Positions 568 through 63,867 of a stretch of 64,000 nucleotides of DNA are shown piece after piece. The notes under the pieces were generated by a model. The model did no database searches. It saw nothing but the letters and a program-made list of their open reading frames with translations, and was not told where the DNA came from. Numbering within the stretch: the stretch's first letter is position 1; each line of letters begins with the position of its first letter. A program made the translations under genes and the position numbers. Source of the stretch: Marasmius tenuissimus (lineage: Eukaryota > Basidiomycota > Agaricomycetes > Agaricales > Marasmiaceae); contig JAQOTA010000062.1 in assembly GCA_029532415.1 (NCBI GenBank), positions 372,001 through 436,000 of the forward strand, given 5' to 3'.

Positions 568-2178
568 CATCAGCAAAATACCGGAAAGGTTGAGACCTAG
601 GTACAACGGATCGGCGTAAGTAAAATATGCCGATCCGATAGTAGTGAATTTGAAGAGTGTTGTGCCTTGGTACAAGTCCCGCAACGCGTTTACACGATTG
701 CGGGTGGCTGTAAGAGTATCAGACCACAGTTAGGATATGGTTGAAACTTACCCAAAACCCGTTAGAACCCCCAAAAACCATATCCGGGGTTGTGCCCTAC
801 CGAACTCGTCATGACGAGCGAAAGGCGTTGTGACTGGTTTCGGGGGTCCTCATGGGTTTTGAAGGATTTTAACATGTTGTCAAGGGATTGAGCAATGATA
901 ATTGTCCAAAAGATGTTGGAAATGATATCTAGGGGTTCCATGTGTATTCTATCCGCCTAAGTGAGGACTGTGGACGAGTGGGTTTGATTGGAGCCATCGT
1001 GCCAACTTGAACCAGTGTGAGTACCGGAGTAGGTGTCCCGGCAAGAACCGAACGCACGTGCCCTCGGGGCGCTTGCGCTGGATTCTTGTCGGAGTCTCAA
1101 ATATATCCCTGGCCTGTCCGCGCGTCAAAATCTTTTCCCCTCTTGACTCTCAACCAGCATTATCATCGCTCAATCTCCTCTGAATTTTTACTCATGGATT
1201 CGACAATCGATAACCCTCACCCAAAACTGAGAAGACTGTTCAGCCTTATACCCAGTGGGATGAAATAGATTTGTGGTCCAGGTGCGTACAACATTGTGGT
1301 TTTTCATTCCTGTAGTTGTACTGACGACTTGTAATGTCATTATGATCTAGTTTTCTGGTTTTACGACTTCCATACATCGTCACCGACGTCATCATCCCAA
1401 CCTTTTGACCGTTATCACAAAGGCGCACGGACCACCTCGAGGGTATATAAACGCGACACTTTTCAAATGATCAATCCCATCTTTTTTCCTTCCCCCATCA
1501 CCACCGATTCACCCGTCCCCTCACTGTCTATTATATTTGTTTTGCACGACCAGCTACTCAACATGTTGTCTCCGTTGCCCATCCTGTTTCTCTGATCACA
1601 ACCATGAGGAATTGCATTCAGGCATGTGTTCACCTGTTCGTCAGTCGCCTTTTGTATACTGATTGAGCCTTGCATTTCTTAGTACCTACTACCAACAAAC
1701 TGAACATGGGATGCACAGATATGTGAGCTGCGCTACCTGTGAGTCCTGGTCCTGTAATTCCGATGATATACCCACTCTTCATTACACCTCCTACAATTTA
1801 TGACCTTCCCCATTATCCGTTACTTTCTCTACCATCTGATGGTACTCGTAATACCCTCTGCTATTTGCCGCGACCTCCCCTATCCGGCATTCTGCCTGAA
1901 ACTGGTTAAAACCTCTCGAAACCCGGTGCATTCTGCGCAACTCGCAGCAAGCTTCGCTCTTCAGTATCATCCTCAATACTCGTTAGAAGGTACTCGAATT
2001 TGTTATTTTCTACTGGTTTCGTGCTCACGGATTCTTGCTCTTTTTCCAGATTTCGGAAAAGTTTTAATACTATTATATAGTCTGTTCCTGCTCGCAACCA
2101 GGTACAGCGGGTTTCGTACTACCTAACGGGTATTGAGGTATGAAATGGCCTTACAACTGTTTGGGTATTTTGCTGATG
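568..2178 (+). mobile_element. TIR transposon A (CATCAGC family), 1611 bp
   Basis: The left end reads CATCAGCAAAATACC and the right end GGTATTTTGCTGATG, with AA at 566-567 and again at 2179-2180. The subterminal parts match element B in reverse order: the left 330 bases resemble the right part of B, and the right 390 bases resemble the left part of B. A and B are therefore two diverged copies of one element in opposite orientation. A TATA-like GGTATATAAACGCG lies near 1441. No transposase motif is visible in any frame, so it looks non-autonomous. Short open frames inside are not recognisable. Confidence 0.8.
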
Positions 2179-2367
2179 AACCGGCGGAGGTGGAATTTGG
2201 GTTTGCACACGGCGTTTTATGCGACTCACGAATAATTTTTACATAGTATTTGTGCCATATTTGTGCCATAACTCTGAAGCAACTCTTATACTATTGAGAC
2301 AGCAGCGAAAGACTCGAGATAAGATGTAAAGCCCGGATCAATAACGTCCTCGGTCTCAGTCTCTGAA

Positions 2368-4161
2368 TCAAGCCCAGTTGTTAACACCATACTCAGTATC
2401 GGCAGCCTTCAACTCGTTCGTCCCCCCAATTTCTAAGTAATCTGTTCCGGCTCGGCTCGCCGTAACGTCAGCGTCTCGAAGTTCGTAAGACTCAATGTTG
2501 ACGTTCACGACCATCTCTTGTGGCCGCTTGAGTTCTACACGGATAAATCTGTTGGCCTGAGAAGGAGGAGGAGGAGGGAGAGGCTTCGGATCAGCGGGGA
2601 ATGAAACCGATCAAATAACGATGAAACAAACTGATGGGGGAGTCTTTTTCAATTTACGGCTGTTACCGCCGGCAGTCCTGCGAGCCATGTCTTCGCTCGG
2701 GCCGTCAGTGTATCCCCATCCTCGACGGGAGTTGAGGCTGCTCAAGAGCGCATTGGTGTATAGCTTGGCTAAAGCATAGTTGAAGGTGAGGTAGAGAGCG
2801 GTGGGCTAGTCACATGGAATGAAAATGCAAGCCGTCAACTGCTGGTGGCCTGAACTCTTGTTGAGTCCCAACTCACATCGACGAGAAACAGTACAAGATC
2901 TATGATTGCGCAAACAGACGTTAATCCCCCAGTTTGGATGGTCGCTAAAGGAGAATGACTAAGCCAATTATCGGCGAGGAGAAGAGCCACCGGAAGCTCA
3001 CAGCGTATGATACGGTTGACAAGCATATCGGACGCTTCCCACCCAGTCTTATGCTTGCGCTGTAGGTATGTGGTCCATCAATGCCCATTCCTGCTTTATA
3101 CTAGTGAACGAGAGTTCTCACCCTGGAAAGAATGACATCCGACTGAATCAGCTCATGCTAAAGCGACAAGAGCTGAAGAAAACTCACAGGTAAGCCACTA
3201 ACATCACTGTAATCGACAAATCTGCAAGAGCCTGACTTATGAGCCACACAAGAACGACAGCCTAACCAAAGTTGTTGAAGTCAAACAATGCACAATACCC
3301 GCCGGGAACCACGGTGAACGCCAAAAAGAAACAGACCTTATATTTTTGTAACTCGGGGAAATTGATATCGAGGACAAAAACCGTCGACGCCGCCGCACCG
3401 GCCAACCCAGTCATACTGAGCACGATAACGATTATAGCCAGCCAAATACTCCCCGTCAACACCTTAACACGCCAGGCGAAGAACAGCTGGACTTGTGTTG
3501 CGATCAGTCCCTGTTCATTGCCGATAGTCAAGGTCAGGGAGAACGCTATATACCGTACGGAGTCGCATAACGACTCACAGTAAGCAAGGGGTCGGTCACG
3601 GCGACTATGAAATAAAAGCTTCTTGTCAATTTGAACGAGAAAACCGAAACCAAGGCGGCTTACCCCAGTCGGACTGTATCAAGTGGAGCACGCCGCCTGT
3701 GTTCATGGGACCTAAGTTGGACGTAAAACGTGTTTGATTGTCCTCAGACTACGTACTAAATTGATTGATTGAAGTTTCGTAGAGGTACACCAGGAGGAAG
3801 ACCGTGTGCAAAACATTGACGAGGTATAGAATACAGACCTGTCTTGCGTATTTGCGTGTTGGCCACCGCATTCCGGAAAATGAGACTCGGACGCACGAAA
3901 TATTTCATCCATAGCTTGTCCCTAGATGAGAGTGGAGTACCATCAGGTCCTCGATGTATTGATATGAGGGGGAAACAAAGACACACTTTCTGCAGGTGGT
4001 GCCGTAGATGTAACACTGTAGAGTGATAAAACCGAGCAAGAACAAGTTGAACGCAATTCCGATGAACATGGGCCCTTGTCTGGTTTGCAAGGAATCAGTT
4101 GATTTCCTAGCTGCTTCAAAAGAGATACCTACATGAGCACTGCGGGACCAGGCGGTGCCAT
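2368..4161 (-). CDS. DUF6534 seven-TM protein, tandem copy 1
   Basis: About twelve exons join to a roughly 341-residue membrane protein. It starts MAPPGPAVLI across a first intron at 4132-4080 and ends EYGVNNWA with a stop at 2368-2370. Visible landmarks are QGPMFIGIAFNLFLLGF (TM1), WMKYFVCILYLVNVLHTVF (TM2), VTDPLLTGLIATQVQLFFAW (TM3), an IQTGGLTSVCAIIDLVLFLV helix and LAKLYTNALLSSLNSRRGW before a charged tail. These match the DUF6534 family of agaricomycete membrane proteins; its function is not known to me. An apparent frameshift near 3850 disappears when a GTGCGT...ACAG intron (3896-3839) is removed. It is one of three tandem paralogues spaced about 3.3 kb apart. Confidence 0.82.
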
Positions 4162-4268
4162 ACTGTCCTTGTTATGAGAGACGAGAGACTCGGGGCGTAG
4201 GCCTTACGGACAAGGGGAGGAAGGAAGGAAGGAACCTGGAAGATGAATCAGAAAGAGTGACTGCGCCG

Positions 4269-4276
4269 TTTATAAA
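4269..4276 (-). promoter_or_regulatory. TATA box of DUF6534 copy 1
   Basis: The palindrome TTTATAAA lies 108 bases upstream of the ATG at 4161. A TATAAA-type motif occurs at nearly the same distance upstream of copies 2 and 3. Confidence 0.55.
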
Positions 4277-5650
4277 CTGAAAAACTTAGGGATAACGAAT
4301 AGGACGTACAGGTCTGGTAGCCAAGGGGAATTTCTCAAATCTTCTCTCTTCTCACCTTCGAACGGGTAAACTCAAACTCATCCTTAACGTTCTGATCCGC
4401 TGACTATAGAGAGCCCCTTTATACATTGGGACGAACAGGGTGAGCAATCACGCACCCGATTTTTACATACCCAACCTCAACGTCCGCCGACATCACCCTC
4501 ATGACCCAACCTTTGCGCGAAAAGATGGGGCATTTACATGATTTTAAGGTAGCAACCATCTTCTCGTACCATTAGTTAGGGTCGCGACGACCGCTGTGTC
4601 TATCGCTGAGCTTTGGTCATACTTAGTAGCTGAGTAGATGAGTCAGATGTGAGGATAAGCACGAGCAACGAGACTGAAACTTGAGTATGGTTGGCCGCGA
4701 TGCATGGTGGCAGAAGAAAATAATGGTTTAGTCGATCATGGTCAGCTAGGTTCGGAGAACGTAGCTCGGTTTCTTTGTAACTCCGGTCTTACTAGGCGTC
4801 GCTGGGCATATTGGTTGCTTCCGACACCTGAGAGACGAATGTTGGGATCTGGAATTTAGAGCCTGGCAGTCGTCCGTGGTTGCTAGATGAAACTACTAGT
4901 ATTGAAACCTTGGTGGCGTCCGTGAAGAGAAGGTCATTGTGCAGTGAGGGAGTCTGCAGCTCAGAGTCACGGTAGTCAGGGTTGAGCACCAATTTAAGCG
5001 CCCATTTCATATTGTCATGCCAAATAGCGAGCAAACAACACGCCATGACCTCAAGATGACCTGTAACCACGACCATTGTATTCATTACTTCCATCTCGTT
5101 CTATCTTTCGACTCCTCTGGAATCGGACTCAGAATGAGTAAACTGCCAGAAGGCTCGGCTTCGTCACTCTCGATTCAACGTGACCTCAGAAACTTCAAAT
5201 AATCATAACGCCGTTTAACGTCACGATTCGATGAGTAAGTCCATCATCTACCTCGCGTTGGAGTCTGGGTAATTTAGCGGGGGATAATTTTGGGAAGGTA
5301 TAGAGTAATATTGTACCATTCGGTGCGAGTCTAAAAGGGTGAGCTTCGTTTATAACCCTATCATGATGCTTTGTGCTTGCCACACTGACATTCGCCGCGA
5401 TCGCAATAGATACTGTGGAACGCTTGGGCAATTGCTTTGTTCGACATCCATGACTCTCGTCGTGCATTATGGGGCCCTATTCTATTTTTTCTTCCCTATT
5501 CGAATCGTGTTTGCTGTCTTGTCGCTTTGTGTGCTGTCCGTAAATGTAATACTGTATACTCTAGATCGACTTTTGTGCTATCGAAACAGCAGTAAGAGAC
5601 TCAGGTTAAGCTGTAAATTCCGAATCAATCATGCCCTCAGCCTCTCTGAG
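4277..5650. repeat. Intergenic spacer of the DUF6534 array with repeat R copy 1 (about 4830-5320)
   Basis: No gene is visible. From about 4830 the sequence matches other R copies: GAGGGAGTCTGCAGCTCAG near 4945, TTTAAGCGCCCAT near 4995 and TAACCACGACCAT near 5070 recur at 7990-8357, 11540-12620, 18010-18420 and 32880-33906. Bases 5440-5650 resemble the 3' flank of copy 1 at 2230-2367, so they belong to the next tandem unit. Confidence 0.6.
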
Positions 5651-7475
5651 TCAAACACAATCGCTGGCATCATACTCAGTATTGGTGGCCTTCAACTCGT
5701 TCGTTCCTCCAATTGCCAAGTGATTGGTATCGGTTCTGGTTCGGCTCGCCATAACGTCAACGTCTTGAAGTTCGTGAGACTCAAGGTCGACGTTTATGAG
5801 CACCTCTTGCGGTCGCTGAAGTGCTACACGAACAAATCTGTTGGCCTGAGGAAGAGGAAGCTTCGAATCAGCGGGGAATAAAGCCGATCAGAAAATGATA
5901 CAACTCACCGATGAGGGAGTCTTTTGCAATCTACGGTTGTTACCGCCAAGAGTCCCACCAATTATCTGTGTGGAGGCCATTCCTTCGGTTCCTGTCCTCT
6001 GCGAATTGAAATTGGAGCCGTTACTGTATCCCCATCCTCGACGGGAGTTGAGACTGCTCATGAGCGCGTTGGTGTATAGCTTGGCCAGAGTAAAATTGAA
6101 GATGAGGTGGAGAGCGGTGGGCTGTTCGCACGGAATAGAAAGCAAGCCATCAACTGCTGGTGGCTTGAAGTCTTATTTAGTCTCGACTCACATTGACGAG
6201 GAACAGTATAAGATCGATAATTGCGCAAATAGATGTTAATGCCCCTGTTTGGATGGTCGCTAAAGGAGGTTGACTGAGCCAATTATTGGCGAGGGAAAGA
6301 GTCACCAGAAGAGGCTCACAGCGGATGACACGGTCAACAAGCATGTCGGACGCTTCCCACCCAGTCTTGCGCTTGCTCTGTAGTTATATAGGGTGTTAAA
6401 ACCCATCTCTGCCTCATACTAAGAGACGGACACGCTCACCCTAGAAGAAGAAGGTCTTGAATAAGCACATCTCAAAATGACGAGAGCTGAAGAACACTCA
6501 CAGATACGCCACTAATATCACTGTGATCGCCACATCCGCAAGAGTCTGCCCTACGAGCCACAAAATACCAATAGCCTATTCAGATTGTTTGGAGTTGAAC
6601 GTTGAACAATATCCGCCGTATCCACCGACGAACAGCAAAAAACAGACCTTATAGTTCTGTAACTCGGGAAAGGTAATATCGGCGATAAAAACCGTCAACG
6701 CCACTGCACCACCCAGTCCAATCATACTGAACATAGCGACGATTATAGCTAGCCAGATACTTCCCGTCAATAGTAAGATACGCCTGGCGAAAAACAGCTG
6801 GACTTGCGTGGCGATCAGCCCCTGCACATCGCCCAAGGTCAGGGTCAGGTGGAACGCTATATTTCGTACGAGGGCACGCAACGACTCACAGTGAGCAAGG
6901 GTTCGGTCGCGAGGACTGTGAAGGGGAAGCTTGTTGTCAGTTTGAATGGATAGACCGAGACGAAGGCGGCTTACCCCAGTTGGATTGTAGCAAGTTTATA
7001 ATGTCACCTGGGTTTGCAGACCGTAAGCTGAACGCAGAACGCGTGATGGTTTTCTCAAGAGCACGCACCGAAGTTTGTAATCAAAGTCTGATAGAGGTAT
7101 ACCAAGAGAAGAACCGTGTGCGCAATGTTGACGAGGTATATAATCCCGACCTGTCTTGCGTATCGTATGTTGGCTACCGGTTTCCGAAAGGTAAGACTTG
7201 GACGCACGAAGTATTTCATCCATAGCTTGTCCCTAGATAAAAGGAAAGTGCCATCAGGACCTCAATGTATTGATATGAGGGGGGAATGAAGAACACACTT
7301 TCTGTAGGTGGTGCCGTAGATGTAACACTGCAAAGTGATACAACCGAGCAAGAACAAGTTGAACGCGATTCCAATGAACATGGGCCCTTGTCTGGTTCGC
7401 AAGAGATCAATTGGTTCCCTAACTGTGCTCCAAAGCAAATACCTACATGAGCACCGCAAAACCAGGTGGTGCCAT
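5651..7475 (-). CDS. DUF6534 seven-TM protein, tandem copy 2
   Basis: The exon plan is the same as in copy 1. The ATG at 7473-7475 begins MAPPGFAVL, followed by an intron at the same place. Later exons give QGPMFIGIAFNLFLLGCITL, VGIIYLVNIAHTVLLLVYLY, a TEPLLT segment, IATQVQLFFARR, and ALHLIFNFTLAKLYTNALMS. The tail carries an insertion rich in Ser, Asn and Gly (YSNGSNFNSQRTGTEG) that copy 1 lacks. The last exon ends NTEYDASDCV with a stop at 5651-5653. All splice sites needed are present and no internal stop remains, so I read it as functional. Role unknown; probably in a cell or organelle membrane. Confidence 0.82.
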
Positions 7476-7582
7476 ACTGTCCTTTTTTGTGAGGCGAGAG
7501 AAAGTTCGAGGCGTAGGCCTCACAAAGAGGGGGGAAAGAAGTCTGGAACCTGGAGGATCAATCAGAGGCGGTAGCTAAACTG

Positions 7583-7589
7583 TTTATAA
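7583..7589 (-). promoter_or_regulatory. TATA box of DUF6534 copy 2
   Basis: CTTATAAACA on the minus strand, about 110 bases before the ATG at 7475, matches the position seen in copies 1 and 3. Confidence 0.5.
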
Positions 7590-7989
7590 GTTTGGCAACT
7601 CAGGGATAACGTCAATGCTGCATGATGCGTAAGTTACTACGACCAAAGCTTAGAGACAGATAAAGCAGCAACCGCGACCCAAACTACCACGATAACTGCC
7701 ACGATACGACGATACGGTTACTACTCCCCAAATGCCTCGAAAAAATTCTCCGTAAAGGCTACCAGACCATGAGGGTGGCATCGGCGGACGTTGAACGTTG
7801 AACGCCGAGATTGGGTATGTGAAAACCGGGTGCATAATTGCTTAAATAAATAGCCAGCGGAACAGAAGGTCAAGAACAGGTTTAAAGCCGCCCACTCGAA
7901 GATGAGAAGACGAGAAGACTGGAGATCTTCCTTGACTATTGAAATAGTACGTCCTATTGAGTACACGAGTCAGACATGAGCCCAAGCAC

Positions 7990-8357
7990 AAAGGATGAGA
8001 CTGAAACTCAAGCGCCTTGGTAGTCAGGGAAGAAGCCAGTTTAAGCGCCCATACTACCATGTCAAACAGCGCGCAAACAACGCGTCTTGAATCTTGACGT
8101 GTAACCACGACTATCGCACTCGATGCCTCCATCTCATTCTTTCTTTCGACTTCTCTAGACTCGAATTCAGAGATGAGTACATCGAAAGGCTCGGCTCTGT
8201 CACTCTCGACCCAACATGACCTAAAAAATTTCAAATGACCGTATCGCTGTTACGACTCGATGAGCAAAGCCCCTCTGCGTACCTCGGTTCGGCATATGGG
8301 TTACTCGGTGGAGGACAAAAAGCTCGGTGAGTAGTCGAGCTTTTCTTAGCATTCACC
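7990..8357 (+). repeat. Repeat R copy 2
   Basis: This segment aligns with 33560-33906 almost end to end. Shared landmarks are GTCAGGGAAGAAG or close variants, GTAACCACGACTATCGCACTC and a right end with AAAAGCTCGGTGAGTAGTCGAG. The shared right boundary near 8357 and 33906 marks one edge of the repeat. It carries no coding potential I can recognise. Confidence 0.6.
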
Positions 8358-8992
8358 TGTACCACAACAACACCCAAACGACTCAACAAAAGAGTTTGTG
8401 CTAGTGTGGTCTACGTAGACGAGACTAAGGAATGCCACAAGGCCCAGCAATGCGACACTCCAATGCAAACACAACGCGCGCGAAGGGATTGTTGTTCGCA
8501 TCTCATTGTGATCTACCATTTAGGCTCAAACTCGGGTTGTATTGGGCGCCTGAAATTCGCTGTTCTCGATTTGAGGCTCGAGGCGCGCTCCGGATCTTGC
8601 CGTTCGAACGTCAAGGTTCGAGACACTAAAGATACGAGATAGAGGACTGGCGTCATACAGTGTACCCTACTGAATGCCAGGTGTTACCGTTACGAGATCA
8701 AACTGGAGGCGAGACTGAAAATAGAAGCCGTTGCAGAGAGACAAGAGAGAGAAAGGAGAAAATCGCAAAGAAGGGTGATCTGCTACTGAGGTAGTGAGTG
8801 ACCTAGGTCGAATTCGATGGCCTCAGGTCCCAACAAGGTCATGCAGAGTTCGAAAAGCAAGAAGTTCCCGGTGCGATACTTTAGTGTCTTGGTGAATGAA
8901 GTAAGAGCACGAAAGTCGACTCAGTAGGAGGATAGCCACTCTTGTACAGATAAACATAAATAAAGTTCGACTTAATTATGCCCTCCTGTAAA
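8358..8992. other. Intergenic, no recognisable gene
   Basis: Only short open frames occur (for example 8406-8642) and none resembles a known family. The last 70 bases are the 3' flank of DUF6534 copy 3. Confidence 0.5.
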
Positions 8993-21389: not shown

Positions 21390-24300
21390 CTAGATTTGTG
21401 AATGGCTAATTGCTTCTACCTTCCTTTGTATTGCTTGACTCCTCGCGACAACGTCCCAGAGACCCTGCACATGATCCGGTTTCCATCCCGCTGGAAGGCG
21501 CTCCTCCGCCAACCAAGTCAGCAGATACGGTAATGGGATTCCCTTCTTCTCCTTCCCATTCTCTTTTACAACTACCCTCTCCCACACGCCTAGAATGATT
21601 GCCATCTCCCAGCTTTCAATATCTCGAGGAAGGGCTGGTGCTACCTCCCCCTCAAGTGCCTGCTTTCGCATGGCGCTCATGCGACCCACATCGTCCGTTG
21701 AAACGAGCGTATCCTCGTATTCTCTAGTCGCGAATAGCTTCCATACCTCCTCAGTATCATCACCAGTTTTAAGAAGACGCGTCGAGCCCTCCGGCCGAGA
21801 TATAATCGCGCTTGAGTGGTCGTCCCATGAAGAAGTTTCTGCGATCGTCTCTAAGCGAGACAGAATCGAGGGCGCCTCATCTTCCTCCCCCTCTTCCGCG
21901 TCTTTAGTATGCCATGAGCATGAGGATGCAGATACAACGTCCTCAAGGGGATTGAAGACGTCTCGAACGGTCTCTCCAACTGGAGAAAGCAAGTCACGGA
22001 CGAGGTAACCCACCCAGGCTCGCCGGATTTTTAGAGAATAACTCGGATAATTCGATCCGACATCACTATTTCCTTCAAACAAACCTTCGTGATGTAGTGA
22101 GCTACGGTCACGTTTCAAGTTGAAAACGCCAGGCTGGCTTGTTGATCCATCAGGGTTGCGAATAGCAAACCAATCTGGAACGGTGAACGGTAGGCGGATG
22201 GGGCTTCTACCCATCAGGAAGAACCCAACGAGCGTGGAAGCAATAGCGAGAAGTGTGGAGAGACCGAAGCATTCCCTGAGTCCGTTGACGATAGTGAAAA
22301 ATGTCAGACCGTGACCATCGCGCGGGCTAACATAGGGAAGAAAGCGATGAGTACCCCTTCGGAAGCCAAACAGTAGCAGGATAGATCGTCACGCACATGT
22401 ATCCGTGATTAGCCATTGCGTTCAGCGCTGGACAGACAGAACGGACGTCGCCTTGTCTGGGAGGGGAGTATTCGTGGCCGCTTGGAGGGGATTGTTCATC
22501 AGCAAAATACCTGAACAGCTATATGGTCATTAGTATCCCCAATATACGTTGGGTAGAACGAAACCCGCTGTACCCAGTTGAGAGCAGGAACAGGGTTTAT
22601 AACCGTATTAAAACTTTTCCGAAATCCGTGAGAATAGCGAGATTCCGTGAGCACGATACTGGTAGAAGACAATGAATTGAGTACCTTTTAACAAGTTTTG
22701 AAGATGATACCGGAGAGCAAAGGTTGTCGCTGATTGCAAAGATTGTACTGGTTTCGGGAGGTTTTAACCGGTTGTGGGAGGGTGCACCGCATAGCAGAGG
22801 TGGTGGTGAGTAGCAGGTGGTATAAAGAGTACCAGCGAGTGGTGGAAGGAGCAACAAGTAACAGAGAAGATGACAAGCTGTAGAGGACGTAACAAATAGG
22901 AGATATTCTATGGGATCTATGTGATTGGGGAGATAGGTGGTGCAGGTAATCAAGGACCTCTCATGGTTTGCACGCTGGACAATGAGAGGCAAGTGATGGC
23001 ATTGAAATTGTATGTAGATAACACGAACGAGGCCGCAAAAGCCATCGAGCTATAGTAGACATAACCACAACTAATCAATACAGAGAGGCAATACATATGA
23101 CTCCAGTAAAACGACGGTGACCAGGACCTGTATGTCGGTATAAGCACGTGTAACATTGGCAGGAAAACATACCAGCGTGCAACGATGTGTGTAGTAGAAT
23201 CTCCAACTCGAACAAAACTGGCTCACCCACGTCTGGACTTCGTCAATATCAAGCGTCGCTGAGAAATACTATGTAAGTTGACATACCAATAGTATGAGGG
23301 AAGAAGCATACGCATGTTATACGGCGCATATATGCAGCCGGATCGTTGGCAAGGGCTCGTAGAGTGTTGCCGACAATGAGCGGGAGGGTGACAAAGGCCA
23401 ATACGCTATTGACGGGACAGGAGAGTCAACAAGATATCAAGGGGGGCGATACCAAGCTCACCTCCATGCGCATCTCAACTCCCACCCCAACAAGCTATGC
23501 TTCTGTTACGCGTCCTGGCCCAAACCTAGTCAGTAATATCCGGAGTAAGGACAACGAGGGACTCAACTCACCTCACCATGAGGAGAGCAAAGAGAGCAGA
23601 GAGGACGTCGGGTTGAGTGGTGTCGAGAGGCTGGACTGCTGGGAATGGTGGTGGTTGAAGGGGGGAAAGAGGGAATTGTCAACTGGTTGATCACATCGGG
23701 TTTATATAGCTGGTAGGTGGTCCGTGCGGCCGTTGTAAAAGGAGTCAAGAATCCGATAGGATGACGTCGGTGACGACTTGGTGACGACTTGGGTGAAGAT
23801 GAACAAAAGTTGTCACTAACACTGTCCAAGGGACCGCGAGAGCACCCAGACAGCCGCCTATATCACAAGCGTTAGTATAAGAACGAGAATGATGAATTTT
23901 CCACGCACCTGAGCTAGAAATTCAATGTATTCTCTCAAAAGAAATCCCAGATGGTCTTCTTAGTGTCATTTGAGGGTTGTTGACCACCGGCTCCCTGAAA
24001 AACAAGTGTCGAACGACGACAGTGGTGGTGGTTGAGAGTCAAAGGGGGAACGGGCCGCTCACGTGCAGGCAAGTCAAGATATATTTGACACTCCGACCAG
24101 AATCTGGCACAAGCGCTCAGCGGGAGCGCCCAGGCTCAGACCTTCGCCTGCCTTGACTCTGACCACGATGTTTAAGGTGAGTGGTCACTGCTATAGATCT
24201 AACATATCTAGAATCCTACAATATGCTATCTACTGTATTCTAGACAATTATGCTTATTTAAAACTACCACAACGCGTCAAAACTATCCAAAACTAGTTAA

Positions 24301-24749
24301 AACCTCCTTAGAACATCCCGAAATCAGCTACAACGTGTTTCACTCATCACGACGAGTTTGGTGGGGCACAACCCCGACAATTAATCTCGCAGATTTTTAC
24401 ATATTTCAGATGAGTTTTAACCATGTTTGAACAGTGTTGCAAAAGTCTTACAGCCCTCCGAAATCGTGCGTACAGATTTCGGGACCACTAACAAGGTATA
24501 AGTCTATCAGAATGTATCAATACCATATCAGAGTGTTTCATTGACTGGATTCCGTTGTAGCTAAGTTCTAAACCTTCAGGTATTTTGCTGATGTTGGGAT
24601 GCCGAGCGAAGACTCGGCTGGAATTCGTGATCCCATGACACTGGGCATGGTTTTTCGAACGAATTGATCGGTTGTGAGTGGCCATCTGGTAGCTCATGTT
24701 CAGTATGTGTTTCAAGAGGAGTCGAGTGGAACGTACCGGAGGTTACCAT
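21390..24749 (-). pseudogene. Heme haloperoxidase (peroxidase family 2)-like gene split by transposon B
   Basis: The exon at 22496-22397 encodes HEYSPPRQGDVRSVCPALNAMANHGY, with the family's Cys-Pro heme-ligand motif followed by Asn-His-Gly. An intron (GTGCGT...GTTAG, 22396-22327) leads to PRDGHGLTFFTIVNGL, a hydrophobic segment STLLAIASTLVGFFL and FTVPDWFAIRNPDGSTSQPG. The C-terminal end has LPYLLTWLAEERLPAGW and stops at 21390. The EHD-type acid-base motif is not clear; LHHEGLFEG sits near its expected place. The N-terminal exon (24749-24597, ending FQPSLRSASQ) is separated by transposon B, and removing B plus one AA copy gives one frame. The start codon is uncertain; an upstream GTG at 24803 is also in frame. 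As it stands the gene is interrupted. Confidence 0.7.
22497..24594 (-). mobile_element. TIR transposon B (CATCAGC family), 2098 bp
   Basis: The ends are a perfect 19-bp inverted repeat, CATCAGCAAAATACCTGAA on the left and its complement on the right. TT lies at 22495-22496 and again at 24595-24596. On the minus strand a TATA-like GCTATATAAACCCG near 23705 precedes a CT-rich stretch and a short open frame. Frames at 22597-23156 (minus) are hydrophobic and match nothing I know. The ends match element A in reverse order. No transposase motif is visible. It sits in the first preserved exon of the haloperoxidase-like gene. Confidence 0.85.
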
Positions 24750-39566: not shown

Positions 39567-42500
39567 TCAGTAAAAATTCTGTGGTGTTCTACTTGGATTT
39601 CCTGCAGGTTTTTCCGCAGCTTTGACTGCTAGAAGGGCACCTAGAGCAGCTGCGATTCATGCATTGTGAGGAACGCGGAAATGCAAACGAGTAGAAATCA
39701 CGTACCACCAACGCAACTACCACCGGCGACGCCACTACCATCGACCCCATTATCCTTTTTAGGCTGGATGAATTTCACATCCTTTGCGATGTCCTCGCCA
39801 ACTAGATGACGGAGAGATTCTTTCATTATCTCTTTAAAGTTGGGGTAAAACTGGATAAGACTGGGTGGGGAGTAAGCCTAAGGAAACGGAGGGATATAAG
39901 GAGAGGCACAACGAACCTGCCATCGACACCGACATTTATGTCCTTCCCTGCGGAATGGCTTGCATGACCGGTCTGCAGGAGTACGGCCGCGACAGCAACA
40001 CCACTCAAAAGCGCTGCTCGACAGGCGACAAGGTGGCACACCCATCCTACAATCTGGGTGTTGTGGTGGTATCCTGAGACACGACGCGGACAACATATAG
40101 GTCATCGACTCACGTCTGCATCCAATGGCGAAACATTTTGGTCGGCAAATTCAAGTCCCTCAACATTTTGGTCGGGAAATCCAAGTTCCTCAACAACTAC
40201 CTTGCACACGTCGTCCAACTTGTCCTTATTGTTACGGAAACGTTCCGAAGTGTAGAATGCTCGAACTTTCGGAGGGTCGAGGTCGAGGTCGAGGTTGGCG
40301 TCCTTGTTCCAAGCCTCGTCAACCCTGCTCAAAACTCTAGTTTCCAGCCCCCATTGATTAGTTATAGCCGAGCCGAACTTTCCTCGGAATCCTTGAAAGA
40401 TGAGCGGTTTCCATCAGCAAAACGGCAAACGCATGGGAGGCATGGGACGCATAAATGTATGGGAAAATGGCCAATTCACCCTCGATAACCCATACATTCC
40501 CCGCGTATAAATGTATGGACATATGGGACGCAAAATCCTGTCCTTTTCCTCAGCCAGCCAATTTTATTTACAAAGTGTTCATTGTACGAAAGCTACGCTA
40601 GCTTGTAATCTGAAGTACAATAAGGTCTAGTAAATACTTGGATCGAAACACAAGTTAAACTTGTGTTGTAAAATATTTGTCGGTGTGTTTACTTATAAGG
40701 GAGTGTGGGAACAGCTATGCAGTTCCTCGGAAACACCCGAGTGGCTTGAACACGGACACAGACTAGACACAGACACAGTGATTAGTCATACAAATCCCCG
40801 AGCTTTAATCTTCCCTCCCTATATTGCATCGCGCGCTCGCCGCTGAGCCTCTTCCCTGGACCCTCTCTCAATTATTGCAACAATGAAAACTCACTAACAG
40901 TGTTCGGTGACCGGTCATGGCAGTTTGGAAGGGATCAGGTTGATGGTGCGTGATAGTTCTCTCGTCTTGGAACTTCTGCTAACTCAGTGTCCCAGATTTT
41001 CAATGTGCTATTCGTCTGACAACGACGCGGATAAGCAAAAGCAATAACACAGTCGTAGTCCCGGATTTCCCGGTGCAAATACTTTTGGTCTGTGGTCCAC
41101 CTGCTTTCAATGAATCAAGTAAGAATTTTCAAGTCTATCTCATTAAATGCGAGTGTTCCTCAATCCTCTCCAAAGTTCCGTGTTTGTCCCTGGCTACGCC
41201 AATGTGTTCTGAGTGCTGGTCTGACTGGTGGGAAATGGTGATACGGGGCTTTTCTGATGTGTTATTCTATACTTTTATCACTGCATGTATACATTTGGTA
41301 CACCTGTCCTATGTTATGAATACAGTTTTTCTGCTGCACTTACTTGCTCAATTGAGCTTTAGCTCTGGATTCCGTCTATCATAAAATTGATATAGCATGC
41401 AAAAGATACCAGAATACATGAATCAGACTGTGATGTATATATGTATGGATGTATGGCGGTCCTGGATGGCAGGAAAATTTCCTCCATACAGGTACCCTGT
41501 ATCCATGCATGTATGGAGAGGCATGGAGAGGCATGGTCCATGCGTTCCATACGTGTGCCGTTTCGCTGATGTCGGAGCAGCATCAATGAGGGAAAGCAGA
41601 ATCAGTCGGGTGATTTCGCCTCGGTACATCCCTGATATGATTTTCTCGAAAGCTTGGGATCGAGGATTGATGCTCATTCGATCTAGAGTGTTTTCGAACG
41701 GTGTTGAAGGCAAGTGCAAACGCTGGTATAATCTGATTTAGTCACAGGGTAAATATCTGGCGAGAAGAGACCCACGGCGTTGTCGAAGGCACCCCATTCC
41801 GTGTTCACAATCATTTCACCTCCCTCCGCAGCCACGTACTCGCCAGGCTTAAGGAGATCCTTTATGTTGTCTATGAGGCTCGTCAGAGACTAAACAGGTA
41901 GATAGGCGGAGCTACTTCTCACCAACATTCTCGACATACGCGCTGTTGGTACCCGTTCCAAATATGGAGCCCATTTTACATACTTCGGCCGTGTAGGAGC
42001 TTGTAAGGAGTACACCAACTGCCTACAAAGTTTCGAACAAGGTTATCTGAGCCAATGAGTATTGAAGATATCCAGTATAACAACTCACGTCATTGACAAG
42101 AGCGGCACATTTGACGCGCATTGCGCTGACTTTGGGAGCATCTTCATCTTCATCTTTGTCGAGAGCATCTTGTAGCAATTTGACGACATCCTGTCCAATA
42201 GCATCCTTCACATTAAATCCTTTCGTCCACTCCTGGAGTAACCCGCAATTAGGACCGATCTGTTTCACTGGGAACGAAAAGGTTAGGCCGAGGTTCACCG
42301 GCTGGGATTCGAAGTCATTAGCGTTATCCCCCTCCGTCAAAAAGGTCTTAATTTCATTCGCCAAAAAGCCTGGGATGGAGTAGATTGAGATTGATAGTGA
42401 AAGACGAGAAACGGACGAGTACCGAATAAGTCCTTCGCTTTCCCAATCTTCAGCCCTTCCGAAATCTCGATTTTTTTGCCAGTAGCAGAGTATTTGTTTT

Positions 42501-52433: not shown

Positions 52434-52477
52434 GTATGTGTCCTTTGTCTCATAGCATTGTAGCGTTGCCAACGGTC

Positions 52478-54888: not shown

Positions 54889-55204
54889 AGCAATCTGGAG
54901 TAATAAAACAACAATTAGCATAGGTTCATCATCATAGGCAATGATAAAAGAAATCACTGCACGGTCAACGGCGATAGCCATCGATCGTTGTTGAGGACAC
55001 AGTCCACCATTGTCAAACATCAATGAAGATGTCAACTTCACAGGTCCAGAACCAGTGTTAACGGTCTGCCAATCACAACAGCGATTAAGCAGTCACGATG
55101 GTTATCAAGTGCAACGACCCCAATAGCGCATCATCATAGGCAGCACACAATAAAGGTGCACATCCTAGAGAGCTGCCATCGCAGGGCACATCAATAGGGC
55201 ACTG

Positions 55205-55216
55205 GGGCCCATAACC
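55205..55216 (-). promoter_or_regulatory. Copia primer-binding site, initiator-tRNA half type
   Basis: Directly inside the 5' LTR the minus strand reads GGTTATGGGCCC. This is complementary, with one mismatch, to the anticodon arm of initiator methionine tRNA (GGGCTCATAACC), the priming mode known for Drosophila copia. Confidence 0.6.
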
Positions 55217-55474
55217 TGTTGAGGCAGAGGTCCTGCCCACGCAGTGGCAGCATGGGACAGACTAGCTCACCTGGAGATAGGCTTAGAGGCAGCAACGAGA
55301 GTAGTAAAAGTACTGGTATCGCATGTAGATATAGAGCTACTTATATACTATACAGAGGTGGCTGTATCTTCTATAACAGGAGTGACTAGGAATAGCATAG
55401 ATCATAGTGAAATGATTGAAGCATATATGCAGCCCAATACAACAGTCCATATATCCGGTAGTCCAGATTCAACA
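55217..55474 (-). repeat. Copia 5' LTR (258 bp)
   Basis: On the minus strand it runs TGTTGAATC to CCTCAACA and matches 47484-47740 with scattered transitions. Confidence 0.8.
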
Positions 55475-55486
55475 GGAAGTCCATGG

Positions 55487-56037
55487 TGTAGTTAAAAGTA
55501 CACACGGAACAAAACCAGGAGCTCCGACCTTGACAGCCAGTTGCCTTTTTGAGCCATGATGACAATAAATGCTTACAAAGTGCGATTATAGCATTTTTGC
55601 TGCCAAACTGGCACTAATATAGTTTAATTACTACCATACAAAGTAATTCCAGTTGAATTGTGAAAGTCACATAGTTGAATTACATGCTATATACATGCCT
55701 TATGACCTCACTAACCCTAGGACCTATCGCACTATATAACCCTTGACCTCCGATCTGTACTATGTCATGCACAGTAGTTAATCTCCACTTTTACAATCTT
55801 ACTTACTCATTTCTCATGCCCTATGCCTCTATCTCCATTTCGTCATATGTACTTACAGATTAGATATCTGGACTCTGTAGTTCACTCTACAGTATATAAG
55901 TTCTCTCTCGTCCTGTATAATCATCATTCTACTTTTCTCTCTTCTATGTTGAGCCCTAGCTCCAACTTACTCTTCACTACTTGTCAACTCCGCTCTTCTG
56001 GTAAAACTCGATACTCTTCACCGTTACTCGCGACTCA
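55487..56037 (+). repeat. Candidate solo LTR (551 bp)
   Basis: The block starts TGTAGTT and ends GACTCA, has a TATA-like CTATATAACCC near 55733 followed by a CT-rich leader, and is flanked by CATGG (55482-55486) and CATGA (56038-56042). No second copy is in the window, so this is tentative. Confidence 0.35.
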
Positions 56038-56084
56038 CATGATGCAACATTATAAGTGTACCCATGGTGCAAGGATAAATGATG

Positions 56085-56960
56085 GATTTACGTCACAAGC
56101 TCCAAATCTGTAACCATGTGAAAGGGTGGCGCGTTCACCTCCTGCTTCACGGACAGATACATGTTACGAATCTACCCACTATTCTTCACTTTCCTGGTCC
56201 CTTGGTCAACATCCCTTTGTTTCCACTGCTTTTCACACAGATACAGGTCCCAGCATCACTGTATGATCCCCATTTCATTCTATGATGTTCCATATCATTC
56301 TTTCCTTGATACATTGCTACCTGTGTTCTTCACTGATGTGTACATGGTCCCCTTTGATCAAATCCATAGATACATCATTTATCCCTTTGCAGCTCATTCC
56401 CATGATCATTGTACAGCTTGGGACTGTCATATATACTCATGGTCACTTTTAGATAGTTCCCCAGCTTGTCCATTTCGTCCATACCGCTTGCCTAGCTTGT
56501 GCTATGTTGAGGGTGTACTTGCTCAATAACTATCTCTTTCACCCTTGATCCCTAGTCCCAGATTGGATGGCCTGAGAGGTTCCCAGTCACAGAGGCTGTT
56601 CATGACAATACAAGACCCTTCAATCAACTGTGATATGATGCAGCTGGGCTTGTATCACCCTTGGCAAAAGAAATGAAGAACCTTCGAATATGTATCAGGC
56701 AAGATACAAGGCACCGTGCCACTGTACTTCACTGAATTGACACAAGCTTGCCAGTTGACCGTAATCTGGCGCTACCACAATTTGGATTCAATCCAATCAC
56801 CATCTTCTGCCTAGCTTCTGACTTATGCAAGGTTTCGCACTTGTATCAAGGAGAAAACTTAAGTCGGCCCATCAATCTTGCTTTGACCACAGCATGCACA
56901 GGGCTGGTGCAGGAGTAGTCAAGACATGTGTGTGATGCATCACATTGGTATTGTCCATCA
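56085..56960 (+). repeat. Decayed copy of the decarboxylase upstream region
   Basis: GAACCTTCGAATATGTATCAGGCAAG near 56680 and CTTATGCAAGGTTTCGCACTTG near 56831 match the region before the decarboxylase pseudogene at 15705-15960, in the same order. About 400 bases of unrelated sequence (56150-56540) are inserted between the first two blocks. Most differences are C-to-T or G-to-A, often at former CpG. No decarboxylase coding part follows. Confidence 0.55.
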
Positions 56961-58250
56961 ATTGCAGTTTTCTGCAAGGCTAGCCACCAGCTTCATGATT
57001 CCACTGCATATGATGCATATAAGGGCATAGCTGCTTGCCCAGTGCTTGCTTGCAAAAGTGAAGACAAAACCGCTCCAGAGTTGAAGGTATGTTTAGCCAC
57101 TTGCAAGCTTGGATAGGTCCCAGGTGTGGTGTCCAGTATGTAGTGCAGGACACATCTACTCCTCCTTTGCCACACACAAGTTCTCCCGGAAAAGTAGGAC
57201 AAGCTATAATTAAACCACCCCAGGCTATACCTGGGCATAATTAAACAGGTTTAAACAAGCCCAGAGGCATTCTATGGCATTTGCTACCTACTATACACAC
57301 TATCTAGTTTATCAGTAGAATTAAACAAAGGTATTTAAAAACGAACGGGCAGAAAGATGTTACTGGTTTAGACCACCGCATTGTCAGGTTTAAACACAGT
57401 TGTTTAACCCGACACATGAGGCATTGAACCAGGTGTTTAAACCCGCCTGTAGCCTATAAAACAAAACGAATTGAGCTGCAGCTGTGGAGAAGGTTAAACT
57501 CTCACCAAATGTCAGCTGTAGGACAGCTGTTTAAACAGGCAACATATCCAGGCCGGGAGACCACTGTTAGTGACTCAAACATGAAAGACTACTAAGCCGA
57601 TATAGTCAGAGATCAGGCTAAGTGAACAAAACACAGGAGGAGACTGACTGTAGGTTGTTCCTGGAGCCACAAAGCTGTGGATATCTTCATGATGGGTTAA
57701 CAAATATAAGAGAAATAATTAGCCATAGTCTCACCAACATTGTAGGTATTCTCCGACCAGCCCAACACAGCCTAACCTATTACCCCAGCCTTTACGATAA
57801 TTGAGATGAAGGGACCTTTATACTGCCACAGTTAGCGGGACGCTGGAGAACCACTCACCAGTCAGCATACAGGACAGCACTTGATAACAGATGGAAGCTG
57901 ATAGGGAAAAGCTAGAAGATGCCGGTTACTGTTGCTATGCCTTGGATTTATGGTCAATGCTTGGTCGGAGGTTTCTCAAAGCTGGGTGATTTCGGTGGTG
58001 GTGGTTTTGGAGTGAGCTGGCATAATTTGCTTCTGTTTGCCCGTCAGTTGATGACATGTGAATTTTCTGGGAGTATGGGCGTCTATGAATCCATTCAAGT
58101 CAGGCGAGCAATGACACAACAAGAGAATCACAATTAATTGAGCTGAGTATTATCAAAAGAAAAGCTACTGTTAAGTTGGCTTCGGGGGAAAAATCTTGCT
58201 GGATCATCTGGTCGGAGTACAGACGCAGCCTAAGAGGGTCGGGGTGGGCA
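56961..58250. repeat. Non-coding tract with a GTTTAAAC motif cluster (57205-57545)
   Basis: GTTTAAAC occurs near 57247, 57390, 57436 and 57531, with several ATTAAACA and GTTTAACC variants between. A hairpin CCCAGGCTATACCTGGG lies near 57220. No gene is recognised; the motif crowding resembles subterminal regions of DNA transposons. Confidence 0.4.
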
Positions 58251-58269
58251 CATTCCTGTAGATTAGGAG

Positions 58270-59335
58270 TCTGATGACGCGTAGCACGATGGCGAGATTC
58301 CCGGGATGTGGGAGGGCATCACTACCCTGAGCACGTTTCTGTGTACTTGTGGATCTGCTTGCATGTATGGGGCCATTATTTGGGTGTGCTTGCGAAGGTA
58401 TAGGGTGAAGGCGTCACTCGCCCAGTGACCTTTAAATGACTTCTATGGGGATTCCTTGCACTAGGTATTCGAGAGTCGAACCGATTTGGATGCTGTGAAG
58501 TAGAAGTGGGTCAAGTTCTGCTTTGGTGAAAGCTTTCTTGAGCCGTTTCTGGAAGGCGTCTCTTGTAAGGGGTCAAAAGGAGTTCCAATGCTTGTAGGAG
58601 AACAGGTGGGAGTCTTGTGGAGGGTCGTTGACTGTGAAATGGTTGTTCAGGGCCGATTTGGGGTCCACATTGTGTTGCTGTTCCACCCAGTAGATGTTCT
58701 TGCTGTGAATGGAACACTTGGTGTGGGGTATGAAAATATTGGTCCGCGGTAGTCCGTTGCGGTCTAATGTTTCAGAGAGTCCGAGTGTTTGACATGTATG
58801 TTGGGGTCAAAGGAGGTTAGGTTTCGTATGGTGCATTCTCCAGTCCGTGCACAGCCCCAGAACAGACACAAAAGGCAAGCTCATACTGCTGCATTGAGTG
58901 GTGTGGAGAGGTCAAGGGTTGTTCTGATGGCCCTGAGTATGTCCATTGTGTAGGGGGCATGGGGCTTTTGAGAACTCATTGGAGGGGTGAGTTTCTCTGA
59001 TGCTCTAATGAGGGTGTCAATTTCGGATTGATTCACTCCCCAGCTGATTCTGTGGAGTATGTGCCACGCTCGAACACCTGCAACATAGTTGGATATTGTG
59101 GAGCTGGCGTATAGAGAGGCTAGAGTTGATATGAAAGAGGAGAGAAGGGTTTGGGATATAGGTGACTGTTGTTGTTTGGGGATGTCTTTGCTGTCGCAGT
59201 AGGAGTGGTATACAAGGAGTCCAGAACTGTAGACTTCCTTGGTCCCGTCGGTCCAAGCGTGGGCCATTGTACCGAGGATCTTCTTGAGGTTGTGGTGGGA
59301 TAGGGGGAGTGGGAGGTTGTGGTGGTCATTTGTGT
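58270..59335 (-). pseudogene. Tyrosine recombinase of a DIRS-type retroelement, decayed
   Basis: The N-terminal part reads MAHAWTDGTKEVYSSGLLVY, FISTLASLYASSTISNYVAG and VRAWHILHRISWGVN, the SAM-like core-binding domain of these recombinases. The catalytic part continues past a TGA near 58884 with WGCARTGECTIRNLTSFDP (first catalytic Arg) and, in shifted frames, HSIQIGSTLEYL, where the second Arg of the HxxR motif reads Gln, then GHWASDAFTLYLRKH. Several stops and frameshifts mark it as dead. It follows RT and RNase H on the same strand, the order of DIRS/Ngaro-type elements. Confidence 0.8.
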
Positions 59336-59439
59336 TTCTGGTCGTGTGATGTTTCCATTTGATGAGTCGTTCTTTGGCTTTGCAGAGCAGTCGTAGTTGT
59401 GTAACTCTTAGGGGGATTATGTTTCGGTTGGGGTGTATG

Positions 59440-59819
59440 TGTCAGCAATCACCAGTTCTGACCTGGTGACGTGTTGCACTAAGCTTTCAGACAACAAAGA
59501 ATGAGGCAAAGAATAGAGAACTCAATACTGGTGAGGAATAAACCAGCTCAAGACTGGGGAATACATGCAGAGTATCTACTTCTTATATTCTACTGAGAGG
59601 ACTACAGCGTGTGTCTACAGTGAGGTATGACATCAAGGTATGACATCGTGAAACAGTATCTGAAACAGGACCAACATGTGTCTACAGCATGTGGGTCCCT
59701 TCATGTATCTACCATGTGTCTATATGATAAGATATGAGTCATGTGAGGGATAAGATATAGATAAGATGGAAAATGATAAGATAAGGAGAAAAGATAAGAT
59801 AGGAGGGAAATTCATGACA
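59440..59819. mobile_element. Solo LTR inserted in the DIRS-type element (380 bp)
   Basis: It runs TGTCAGC to CATGACA and is flanked by GTATG at 59435-59439 and 59820-59824, a perfect 5-bp target duplication. It separates the RNase H part from the recombinase part. Many GATAAGATA units lie near its right end. Confidence 0.75.
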
Positions 59820-59824
59820 GTATG

Positions 59825-61375
59825 CGAGTCCTAGAGAGTATGTGATTTCTTCCACCACCAGTAGGTCTCGTCAATACCAAGCTTGGTTTGTGACTTGAAC
59901 TTGGTTTGGTGGTCAAGCTTCTCTTGTTGTCCGGCAAGATCTCATACTTTTGAGGGAGCTGATCGTCTAGAAAGGGCCAGAGCTTTGGGGGAGTTGTAGT
60001 TAGCAACAAGATTTCTGAGGGCAGCAGGGATCTCAATAGGGGGTAGGAGGAGGCGCTCAGGGGGGTATAAACCACGGGAGGGTGCATCTGCAGGGTTGGC
60101 TGAAGAGCAGACGTATCTGTGTGGGGGTTAGTATGACAGTGTAGAACAAAAGGGGGGGGGTTCATGCCTTGTATGAATGGAAGTGTTATTATCTTGGGAG
60201 GCGAGCAGATGGTGTATTCATTTGAAGCATGAGTTGACCTGTCTGTTCTTGCTTCTGAAGTTCCACCAGCCTTCAACAACCACCCAGTTGTCACTAAAAA
60301 CTTTGAATGATCTCGGAGTCCCTGGTAGCTGGGGGGAAGGATTGAGTTAGTTTCAGGCAGAGTAGTTGGTACTTGTACTGACATTGAGGATGGTAATGAG
60401 TAGAAATTCAAAGGCAACTGCTTCAGCCCAAGCAATGTCTCTGTGTTCCGCATTCCAGCCCGGTAGCAGGGTCCACACTCTTCACCTGTCTTTGATGACA
60501 ATTGCAAGGCCAGTGCCAGAGCTGGCGTCGGAGAAAGCATGGATGTCAAAGACTTGTTTGGGCCCTGGGATTGGTCTTGAGATGGATGGGAGTTGTAGGG
60601 TTGATTTCCACCAGTGAATGTTGTTGGGAGTGTCTTTAGGTGGTGTGCGGGAAAGAAAGGGGTTCTCTTGGAATATTCCAAGCATTGCCTTGAGGCAAGT
60701 GAGGTAGGCCCGACCTTCGGGAATGATGAGGGAGGTGTGAAGAAGCTTTCCATAGAGTTTCTGGACGTCAGGTAGGGTGTGGGTGCAGGAGTCTTCCCAT
60801 GTGATCACGGCAGCTAGGTATTTCTGTTGTTTCAATCTTTGGAGCGAGACAATCATCTGGGCTAGGTCCCAGTCGAAACCGGTGTAAGGGGCTTGTGAGG
60901 AGAAGTTTATATCCTTTGACAGCTCCCAGGGGAGCCCAAGTTTCGTGGAGATCCAGTTGATGTCGTCAAGGTTATACGTGAAACGTAGATCATGGGAGTT
61001 CCGTGGAGAGGAGAGTGAGAGGTCTTAGAGGGGGAAGGCCATGTCTTCATCAAATTCTTCAATTCTCCCATCCGGTAGGGTATTGCCTCTGAACCAGATC
61101 CAACCCCCTGAGTGGTGTTGACTGTGGATCACAATACAGGTATGGATGGCGGCTTGTAGCTCATTGAATTCTGCGAGAAATTGTTTGGGGATATGTGTGA
61201 AGATGTGATCATTGACCCACTTCGAGACAGGTCCCAGTCCAGATGCTCGGAAGATGTCGATGACAGCATCACCAATGGATCCATAGATACCTGCCCCCGA
61301 TGAAACTCTGAAGCAGACAGAAAAGTCAAGGTAAAACTCTGAGTCTGATGTGCGGACGACAGCCCCTGGCCACTG
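59825..61375 (-). pseudogene. DIRS-type reverse transcriptase (C-terminal part) and RNase H, decayed
   Basis: From 61375 downward: QWPGAVVRTSDSEFYLDFSV, SSGAGIYGSIGDAVIDIFRA and KWVNDHIFTHIP, where the family's VDDH catalytic pair now reads VNDH. Then LGLPWELSKDINF, LYGKLLHTSLIIPEGRAYL and the RNase H signature AFSDASSGTGLAI, followed by TGA where the family has Trp. The rest reads WAEAVAFEF, VFSDNWVVVEGWW and NPADAPSRGLYPPERLLLPP. Multiple stops make it non-functional. The upstream RT part is at 63868-64000. Confidence 0.8.
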
Positions 61376-63867
61376 CATCAGCAAACCCCCAAACTGTGGA
61401 ACATCAATGCGTAATCTTTACATTGTGGTTCAGGCTTTGTGGGACCATACATCCATGTGACTGTAGTTTACATGAATTTGTGCAAATGTAAAGGTGGTCA
61501 GGTCAATGTAAATGATGAACATACTGAAATCACAGGCACAGGGCTACACCCAATGTAATAAAGAATGTAGGTGAGGATCACCAATGTAATGACAATCTAC
61601 AAAGACCCACAGGATGCAATTGAGAGATCTAGTAAATTTATAGATGTTGATGGTTTCATGCCAGCCATACAGTAAATTGTGGGCTACACAAGGGCCACAT
61701 CTTGTCCCGTAGTCAAGACCTTGAAGAGGAAAGAGTTCATTCAACTTTGCAAGCGACTGGGTAGCAAGCGGCAGGCCAGTTGGCAGACCCTAAACATAGA
61801 TTAGTTACAGTATTGAATAATGACGTGTGATGGTGCGCACAACGTTGGAGATGGCGATCCACCTCTACAGACCTCTACTCGCCTTTTCAGTGTCTCCGAT
61901 ACCTCTAAATGTCACGGTAAGTCACTAAAAAATCTTAACTATCAGAATAATTTCTTACTTACAACAGAGGTCACTCTGTCTAGTACTTAATCAACAGGTG
62001 TCTCTAAAGTCCTATGAGCCATATCAAGACTCCTCGTCAACCCTTTGAACAACCTCACAACAGGCTCCCCCATCAAATTCTGTGGCGAGAGAAAGGATAC
62101 ATCTCATCTCTCTTCCCTCCAGAGACCAGACTCAGTCTCTTCTTTACCATTACCAGAGTTTTTTAAAGTCGATATGTCCTGAACACTACCAGACAGACCT
62201 CATAAAGGCACTGAAGAGCAAAGGAAGTTGAAGAGATGGGAGCACTGTTGATTTCGGGATAGCATTTGAGGCTTGTATAGGGGGTTCAGGCTCTGGATTT
62301 GAGCATGTGTTGTATAGGTGCATGATTGCTGTTACTTTGTAGATGGCACGTTTTAGATGGCACGTTTTAGATCCCCTCATTCCAACGTATGCACAGCATC
62401 AAGACATTAAAAAGGCTTACCAGTCGCCGGTGACTTGTGAGCAAGCACACCAAAGCGGAAAGCCGACCCTGGCAGATGGATTGGTGAAGCCAATGTGCAA
62501 TATTGACATAGAGGCAGTCGCAGCAACATGGCAGCTACAACTCGACACACGGAAGAGTCCTACGAAGATGACCTCATCAATGACGCCAGCTATGACATGC
62601 GCCCAAGCCTTACATCCCAGGTATATAAGTCAGGCTGGCCAGTCTGCCGCTTGTTGCTTCCCTTCCCCACTGCCACCACCACCACCCAGGCTCCCAAACA
62701 TCTCTCTCTCATTCTCTAATGCTCTCAACAACCTTAACAACAACACTGCCCGTAGCCATTGGCTTACCAGTCCTCGCCATCAAATCACTCTCATTCAAGA
62801 TTTTGGGACTATGACACTGGTAACAATTCTCGGGAGCCCTGGTCAGGGGAGAGTTTCTAGGAGCCGATGGTGGGATTCAGACTTCTTGAGCCCATCGCAA
62901 CCCTTCATTGAGTACAACGAGCCCAGCTTTGACTCACGCAGTGTGTATATGCATGCTAATTCTCAGACTATGACTAATGTGTCTCTATTCTCTGGCTCAA
63001 CAGTGATTGTTCCATCACCCCATACGTTCATTGAAGCAACAACCTTTGAAGTGGATCTTGGCTCAACAACGTGTGGTAGCTCAAGACATCTCTTTGCCAT
63101 CGAGTTCAACATCCTACAGTTAGCGGACCTTCCTCATTGCCTCTTCGTGCATCTGATTCAAAGCTTTGATACCTAGCCTCGTGAACTTATGCGTATAGAA
63201 GGCATGTCAATGTCACAAAACTGATTACTGCTAGTTCATTGAGGCTGTTAGTGTTGAGTAAGTAGCTGCTAGTCGCCCATTGTATTTCAACACTCACCAA
63301 GGGATTTAGTGTTCTCTATTTGCTCATTGACCATCATTTGGTAAGTTCTTGCTCATGTTTGCGTTAGTGTCACTGCTGATCTTGATGTCCAAGTTTCAGG
63401 CATCAATATTGTCATGCTGCTGATCTATTGGAACTATCATCTGGAAGCTCGAGTATGTTGTTTAGACCGTGTATCTTATCTAGGCTCCTGGCTATCAAAC
63501 ATTATCACCAAACTGTGACAATTTCTATGTTTGAGTTGGTTGAGAGTCTGTTCCCTAGGACGGCGTGTAGTGGGCATCTTGAAAGCGGCCGTGTACATGC
63601 TCAATACGGGAGGCTTGCGCAATGTACAGGTGCATGCCCATCATGTGCCGGGAATGTGCAGTAGCCTCCATTATGGTTTTCCACTACAGTATGCCTGGCA
63701 AATGTACATTGAATCTACATACTGGGGTTCATGTACAAACAAGGTCATAATGGGATATAAAATGTTTGACAAATACCTGTTGGGAACATTGTGGTACCCA
63801 AAGCCACCAGGTTGCATGGATGTAGGCCTGTTCCATTGATGGTCTACGATTTGGAGGTTTGCTGATG
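61376..63867. mobile_element. TIR transposon D (CATCAGC family), 2492 bp
   Basis: The left end CATCAGCAAACCCCCAAA is mirrored by TTTGGAGGTTTGCTGATG on the right. TG flanks at 61374-61375 and 63868-63869. Subterminal ATGTAC/GTACAT motifs are frequent. The longest internal frame (62343-63176 plus, 277 codons, Pro-rich near its middle) matches no transposase I know. It lies in the reverse transcriptase of the DIRS-type element. Confidence 0.87.

Follow-up and report, generated by a model that had tools for sequence, protein, structure and literature searches.

Four inserts in a window of 64,000 nucleotides from Marasmius tenuissimus (assembly GCA_029532415.1, contig JAQOTA010000062.1, positions 372,001 to 436,000 of the forward strand) were identified as mobile elements of an already known kind. 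These inserts, elements A to D, almost certainly belong to the PlavakaB type of the Plavaka superfamily, as non-autonomous DNA transposons of the cut-and-paste class; support for membership is good for D and strong for the other three. In Kojima 2025 (PMC12730594), PlavakaB families are described with termini 5'-CATCA..TGATG-3' and target duplications of 2 or 3 base pairs (bp). Such termini were found on A to D and genome-wide, and the match of A to D to the published termini and duplication rule places the finding in that known kind. An earlier model-made interpretation of the DNA letters (the sequence-only reading) had implied that the end motif was unassigned; it is the published PlavakaB terminus. 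Its hint at CACTA-type (CMC) elements pointed in the right direction, since Plavaka is grouped with EnSpm, Mirage, Chapaev and Transib in the CMCT clade, whose members usually have CA..TG ends and duplications of 2-5 bp (PMC12730594). On this assignment the features of the window are as follows.

Element A: 568..2178, plus strand; 1,611 bp, non-autonomous PlavakaB-type copy, flanks AA.
Left AA target duplication of element A: 566..567, no strand; right copy at 2179-2180.
Element B: 22497..24593, minus strand; non-autonomous, reversed relative to A, flanks TT.
Left TT target duplication of element B: 22495..22496, no strand; right copy at 24594-24595.
Element C: 40412..41571, plus strand; non-autonomous, inside a hexokinase gene (minus strand), flanks TC.
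Left TC target duplication of element C: 40410..40411, no strand; right copy at 41572-41573.
Element D: 61376..63867, plus strand; non-autonomous, inside an open frame, flanks TG.
Left TG target duplication of element D: 61374..61375, no strand; right copy at 63868-63869.

A script run on the window placed the starts of CATCAGC at 568, 22497, 40412 and 61376 and the stops of GCTGATG at 2178, 24593, 41571 and 63867, with flank pairs AA/AA, TT/TT, TC/TC and TG/TG. The fourfold pattern of these ends between identical dinucleotides, as first described, was thus exact, apart from the right end of B, which lies at 24593 and not one base later at 24594. The heptamer was present at three forward and one reverse places elsewhere in the window, outside the A-D pairs. 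Sequence comparison bore out the claimed homology of A and B, which is located at their ends with B inverted with respect to A. Genome searches with C and with D returned neither A nor B. The four do not form the single family that had been proposed, and more than one is present: A and B match elements of 11.7-15 kilobases (kb) and C another element of 8 kb.

The genome searched was the window's own (71 megabases, 70 contigs). The 15-mer CATCAGCAAAATACC, taken from the ends of A and B, occurred 90 times, versus 0 for the control read backward; CATCAGCAAA occurred 420 times, versus 86 for the same letters backwards. Seventy-eight of the 90 15-mers could be joined into 39 facing pairs separated by less than 25 kb; apart from these, only A and B were neighbours at such a distance. 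A sample of 47 elements was assembled from these 39 exact pairs and eight others, namely C, D, three A/B-type elements with one end altered (e20, e21 and e34), the copy of C, and the relatives on C3 and C22. Of the 12 15-mers without a facing partner, three are represented in the sample by elements whose second end is altered; the others were excluded, as were single ends without a partner (e.g. in L037 and L038).

Identical 2-bp flanks were found in 42 of the 47 elements (35/39 facing pairs and 7/8 others), and in 29 of the first 32 elements of the sample. When the right flanks were shuffled in 5000 trials, the mean was 3.8 identical pairs and the maximum 12. A flank match of exactly 3 bp (CTG) was seen in 1/47, at C10:5034117-5045527; 4-, 5- or 6-bp sharing was seen in 0/47, with none longer among the matches listed. 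The dinucleotide duplication, set beforehand as a check on a larger sample, therefore held. Fourteen kinds of dinucleotide were duplicated, TA in 3/42, in agreement with the view that the target is not restricted to TA. Homology of other copies extending past CATCAGC/GCTGATG had been named as a refutation. The 300-bp flanks of 11 copies were compared, and no match was found across different copies; the sole flank match among them was 19 bp long, between the two flanks of L024. The ends, the 2-bp duplications and the sharp boundaries were all observed directly, and the inserts stand as transposons delimited by these ends.

In L014, L017, L033, L034, L045, L048, L049 and L050, the end motif recurs in degenerate form (e.g. 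CGTCAGTAAAATACG) approximately 47 bp inside one end. This inner copy is possibly a candidate subterminal transposase site.

The absence of a visible transposase was correct for the window itself, and relatives bearing the Plavaka transposase family PF18759 were located elsewhere in the genome. Three siblings of A were 98-99% identical to it; A is about 500 bp shorter, and the gap specific to A falls at its position 1159-1160. A copy of B, 98% identical, lies at C30:147497-149604. Elements of 11,736, 11,761 and 15,198 bp have ends 85-89% like those of A across the terminal 254-368 bp, and each gave a PF18759 match, the C19 element also by an exon test. Across all 39 facing pairs, with PF18759 places entered one per neighbourhood, a hit was found in 8 of the 12 pairs longer than 5 kb, whereas the 27 shorter pairs gave none. 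Element C has a 99% identical copy at C63:484117 and a PF18759-bearing relative of 8,066 bp at C3:2765542-2773607 (flanks TC/TC), the ends of which match those of C at 80% (90 bp) and 86% (35 bp); the PF18759 pieces in it span nearly the whole profile. The transposase is thus present in elements with A/B-type ends and in elements with C-type ends, and a candidate for the autonomous partner expected elsewhere in the genome was found for both types, though not for D.

PlavakaB transposases are described with DDE residues and with CxxC and H(3-4)H between the second D and E (PMC12730594). In an alignment (A3) of 30 of 38 transposase homologues, D182 was present in 28 rows, D297 in 27, C315 in 27, C318 in 27 and E619 in 25; the remaining rows at these positions were gaps except for one N and one K. 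The DDE residues with CxxC between the second D and E accordingly agree with the published marks.

The insertion sites were examined by joining the flanks of each element on one dinucleotide. For C, this gave an open frame of 157 amino acids (aa) across the junction, and one of 131 aa on the other strand. The joined frame matched Hexokinase_2 (Pfam) and hexokinases in the PDB, and aligned to the 511-aa paralogue PM082_004983 with no gap at the junction, from which we conclude that C interrupts a hexokinase gene. The two halves of this gene are the public gene models PM082_021294 and PM082_021293. Among the best 120 of 1643 proteins, none was an intact hexokinase allele of a different M. tenuissimus strain, and the support for the C junction comes from the paralogue. 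Joining the flanks of B gave a 131-aa open frame; the insertion sits 7 residues ahead of a Peroxidase_2 match, which makes a location in a coding exon likely. The flanks of A gave no open frame of at least 100 aa across the junction. For D, a 159-aa open frame crossed the junction, cut by the window end. Pfam assigned this host frame to no family; it may resemble a reverse transcriptase. Of the proposal that B, C and D lie in coding exons with the frame restored on removal, the hexokinase site of C and the open frame of D are upheld, and B is left as likely.

The host frame of D has an uninterrupted, 74%-identical relative at C10:1392710-1393067, which runs through the junction with a single TG and constitutes a paralogous empty site. 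A relative of D itself, 2.1 kb long with flanks TG/TG, lies at C22:163411-165566, and a further D-type end at C3:2251458. No PF18759-bearing element with D-type ends was found in the genome, the end at C3:2251458 not being covered. This result favours a reading of D as a third, different superfamily whose CATCAGC ends are a coincidence, but D and its C22 relative have the same heptamer and the same 2-bp duplication, as the PlavakaB rule has it, and we regard such a coincidence as improbable.

Several further observations, like the lack of a PF18759 partner for D, weigh against a PlavakaB assignment. In four of the 47 elements (e32, e34, e41 and C63) no duplication of 2 or 3 bp is present, beside the 42 with two and the one with three. 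Four of the 12 long pairs gave no PF18759 hit (C37, C28, C7:5041700 and C63:472919). Those at C37:272610-283852 and C28:2007480-2014632 are A-type elements that have only their terminal parts in common with the PF18759-bearing elements. The C37 element is enlarged by a nested insert, which we take to be copia-like, between 520-bp identical direct repeats resembling long terminal repeats (LTRs), and the C28 element holds a long insert between 187-bp LTR-like direct repeats. Conserved histidines were seen in the transposase, with a spacing not matched to the published H(3-4)H motif. Finally, the PlavakaB class was set by termini, duplication length and PF18759, not by position in the published tree.

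Two other explanations of the set were considered. Ordinary CACTA/EnSpm elements with drifted ends would fall in the same wider CMCT clade, with its usual CA..TG ends and 2-5 bp duplications, and are very improbable here: the ends are CATCAGC, neither CAC..GTG nor CACTA, most elements have a 2-bp duplication (42/47) where the fungal EnSpm families described in PMC12730594 make 3 bp, a length seen in 1/47, and the transposase match is PF18759. A chance set of unrelated inserts with a common heptamer, which would suit the almost complete lack of common sequence between the interiors of A/B, C and D, is practically out of the question, being contradicted by the 90 15-mers against 0 in the control and their 39 facing pairs, by 42 duplications where shuffling gives 3.8 on average, for A, B and C by PF18759 in both A/B-type and C-type elements, and for D by its ends, duplication, C22 relative and empty site.

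On the PlavakaB assignment, longer elements elsewhere in the genome would make a Plavaka transposase, a DDE nuclease of the CMCT clade with a predicted RAG1/Transib-like fold. The enzyme would recognise CATCAGC/GCTGATG and the sequence just inside, excise the element and join it to a target in which the two strands are cut 2 bp, rarely 3 bp, apart; this offset would become the flanking duplication. Elements A to D would be mobilised in trans by such a transposase. The siblings 98-99% identical suggest that this movement was recent.

The A/B partners (c19, c32 and c27, i.e. L015/L016, L009/L010 and L011/L012) carry the transposase gene and a second gene on the opposite strand, with open frames of 463 aa in c19 and 497 aa in c32. 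The same pair occurs in public records under consecutive locus tags (AAF712_009273/009272 and PQX77_011262/011261). All 20 homologues of the second protein among the matches listed were from Marasmius, three of them covering only 20-30% of the query; scoring was limited to the 7,993 candidates with the most words in common. Pfam gave no family above the cut-off for the second gene (one match, E 0.68, was far below it), and the protein model (pLDDT, predicted local distance difference test, 37.6) was too poor for use, its fold search being empty. In the C32 element, 6622-6726 and 7147-7247 form an inverted repeat that lies between the divergent genes and is 82% alike over about 107 columns. Some PlavakaB families were published with a TET/JBP gene (PMC12730594); TET/JBP was absent from the family matches of six open frames in one A/B partner, no TET/JBP-specific search having been made.

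By sequence, the transposase profile matched no transposase in the PDB. A model of one homologue (P0156) has a predicted RAG1/Transib-like core at about 10% identity, and its C-terminal residues 703-905 are modelled with a BAH-like fold, recognised by structure and not by sequence. A profile of this region was built from 19 of the 30 A3 rows (in four rows the region is empty or nearly so, and seven more were left out). It gave 0 matches in the PDB at E up to 10. Pfam found no BAH in the 19 pieces, nor in two further Plavaka pieces, one of which also gave none in the PDB. No literature combining Plavaka with a BAH domain was found, subscription papers and supplements being outside the search. 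We tentatively propose, at somewhat less than even confidence, that Plavaka transposases may combine a RAG1/Transib-like DDE core with a C-terminal BAH-like domain, and that the second gene seen in Marasmius may act alongside in the A/B partners. ORC1 and DNMT1 use the BAH fold to read histone marks. Should the BAH-like domain modelled on P0156 be a chromatin reader, excision or integration could be guided by it, in parallel to the PHD finger of RAG2. It may be the one new lead here, and would point to a way, open to testing, in which chromatin could guide transposition.

Within the window, Plavaka elements occupy a hexokinase gene and an open reading frame, with clean 2-bp duplications. The Plavaka group is little studied and is abundant in a related mushroom: PMC8290104 puts KDZ and Plavaka together at about half of the DNA elements in Marasmius oreades and characterises their terminal inverted repeat motif. 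With its 47 elements, the sample puts the published PlavakaB rule to a quantitative test, in a species unnamed in the available text of that rule (PMC12730594).

Among known systems, KDZ elements do not agree, with duplications of 7 bp (Kyakuja) or 8 bp (Zisupton) (PMC12730594) against 0/47 sharing 4-6 bp here. CACTA/EnSpm (CMC) elements have CA..TG ends, short duplications and the wider clade in common with A to D (PMC12730594), and differ in terminal motif and transposase family. Transib/RAG1 resembles the core fold of the single modelled Plavaka transposase, and differs in its approximately 10% identity, its ends and its duplication length. For Transib, this length is 5 bp. Tc1/mariner elements, which target TA, do not fit the 14 dinucleotides. 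PlavakaA has a Plavaka transposase and 2-bp duplications as here, with published termini TGT..ACA (PMC12730594). PlavakaB differs in that the A/B partners add a second gene, Marasmius-only among the matches listed, and agrees in its CATCA..TGATG termini, its 2 or 3 bp duplications, its Plavaka transposase and its mushroom host (PMC12730594).
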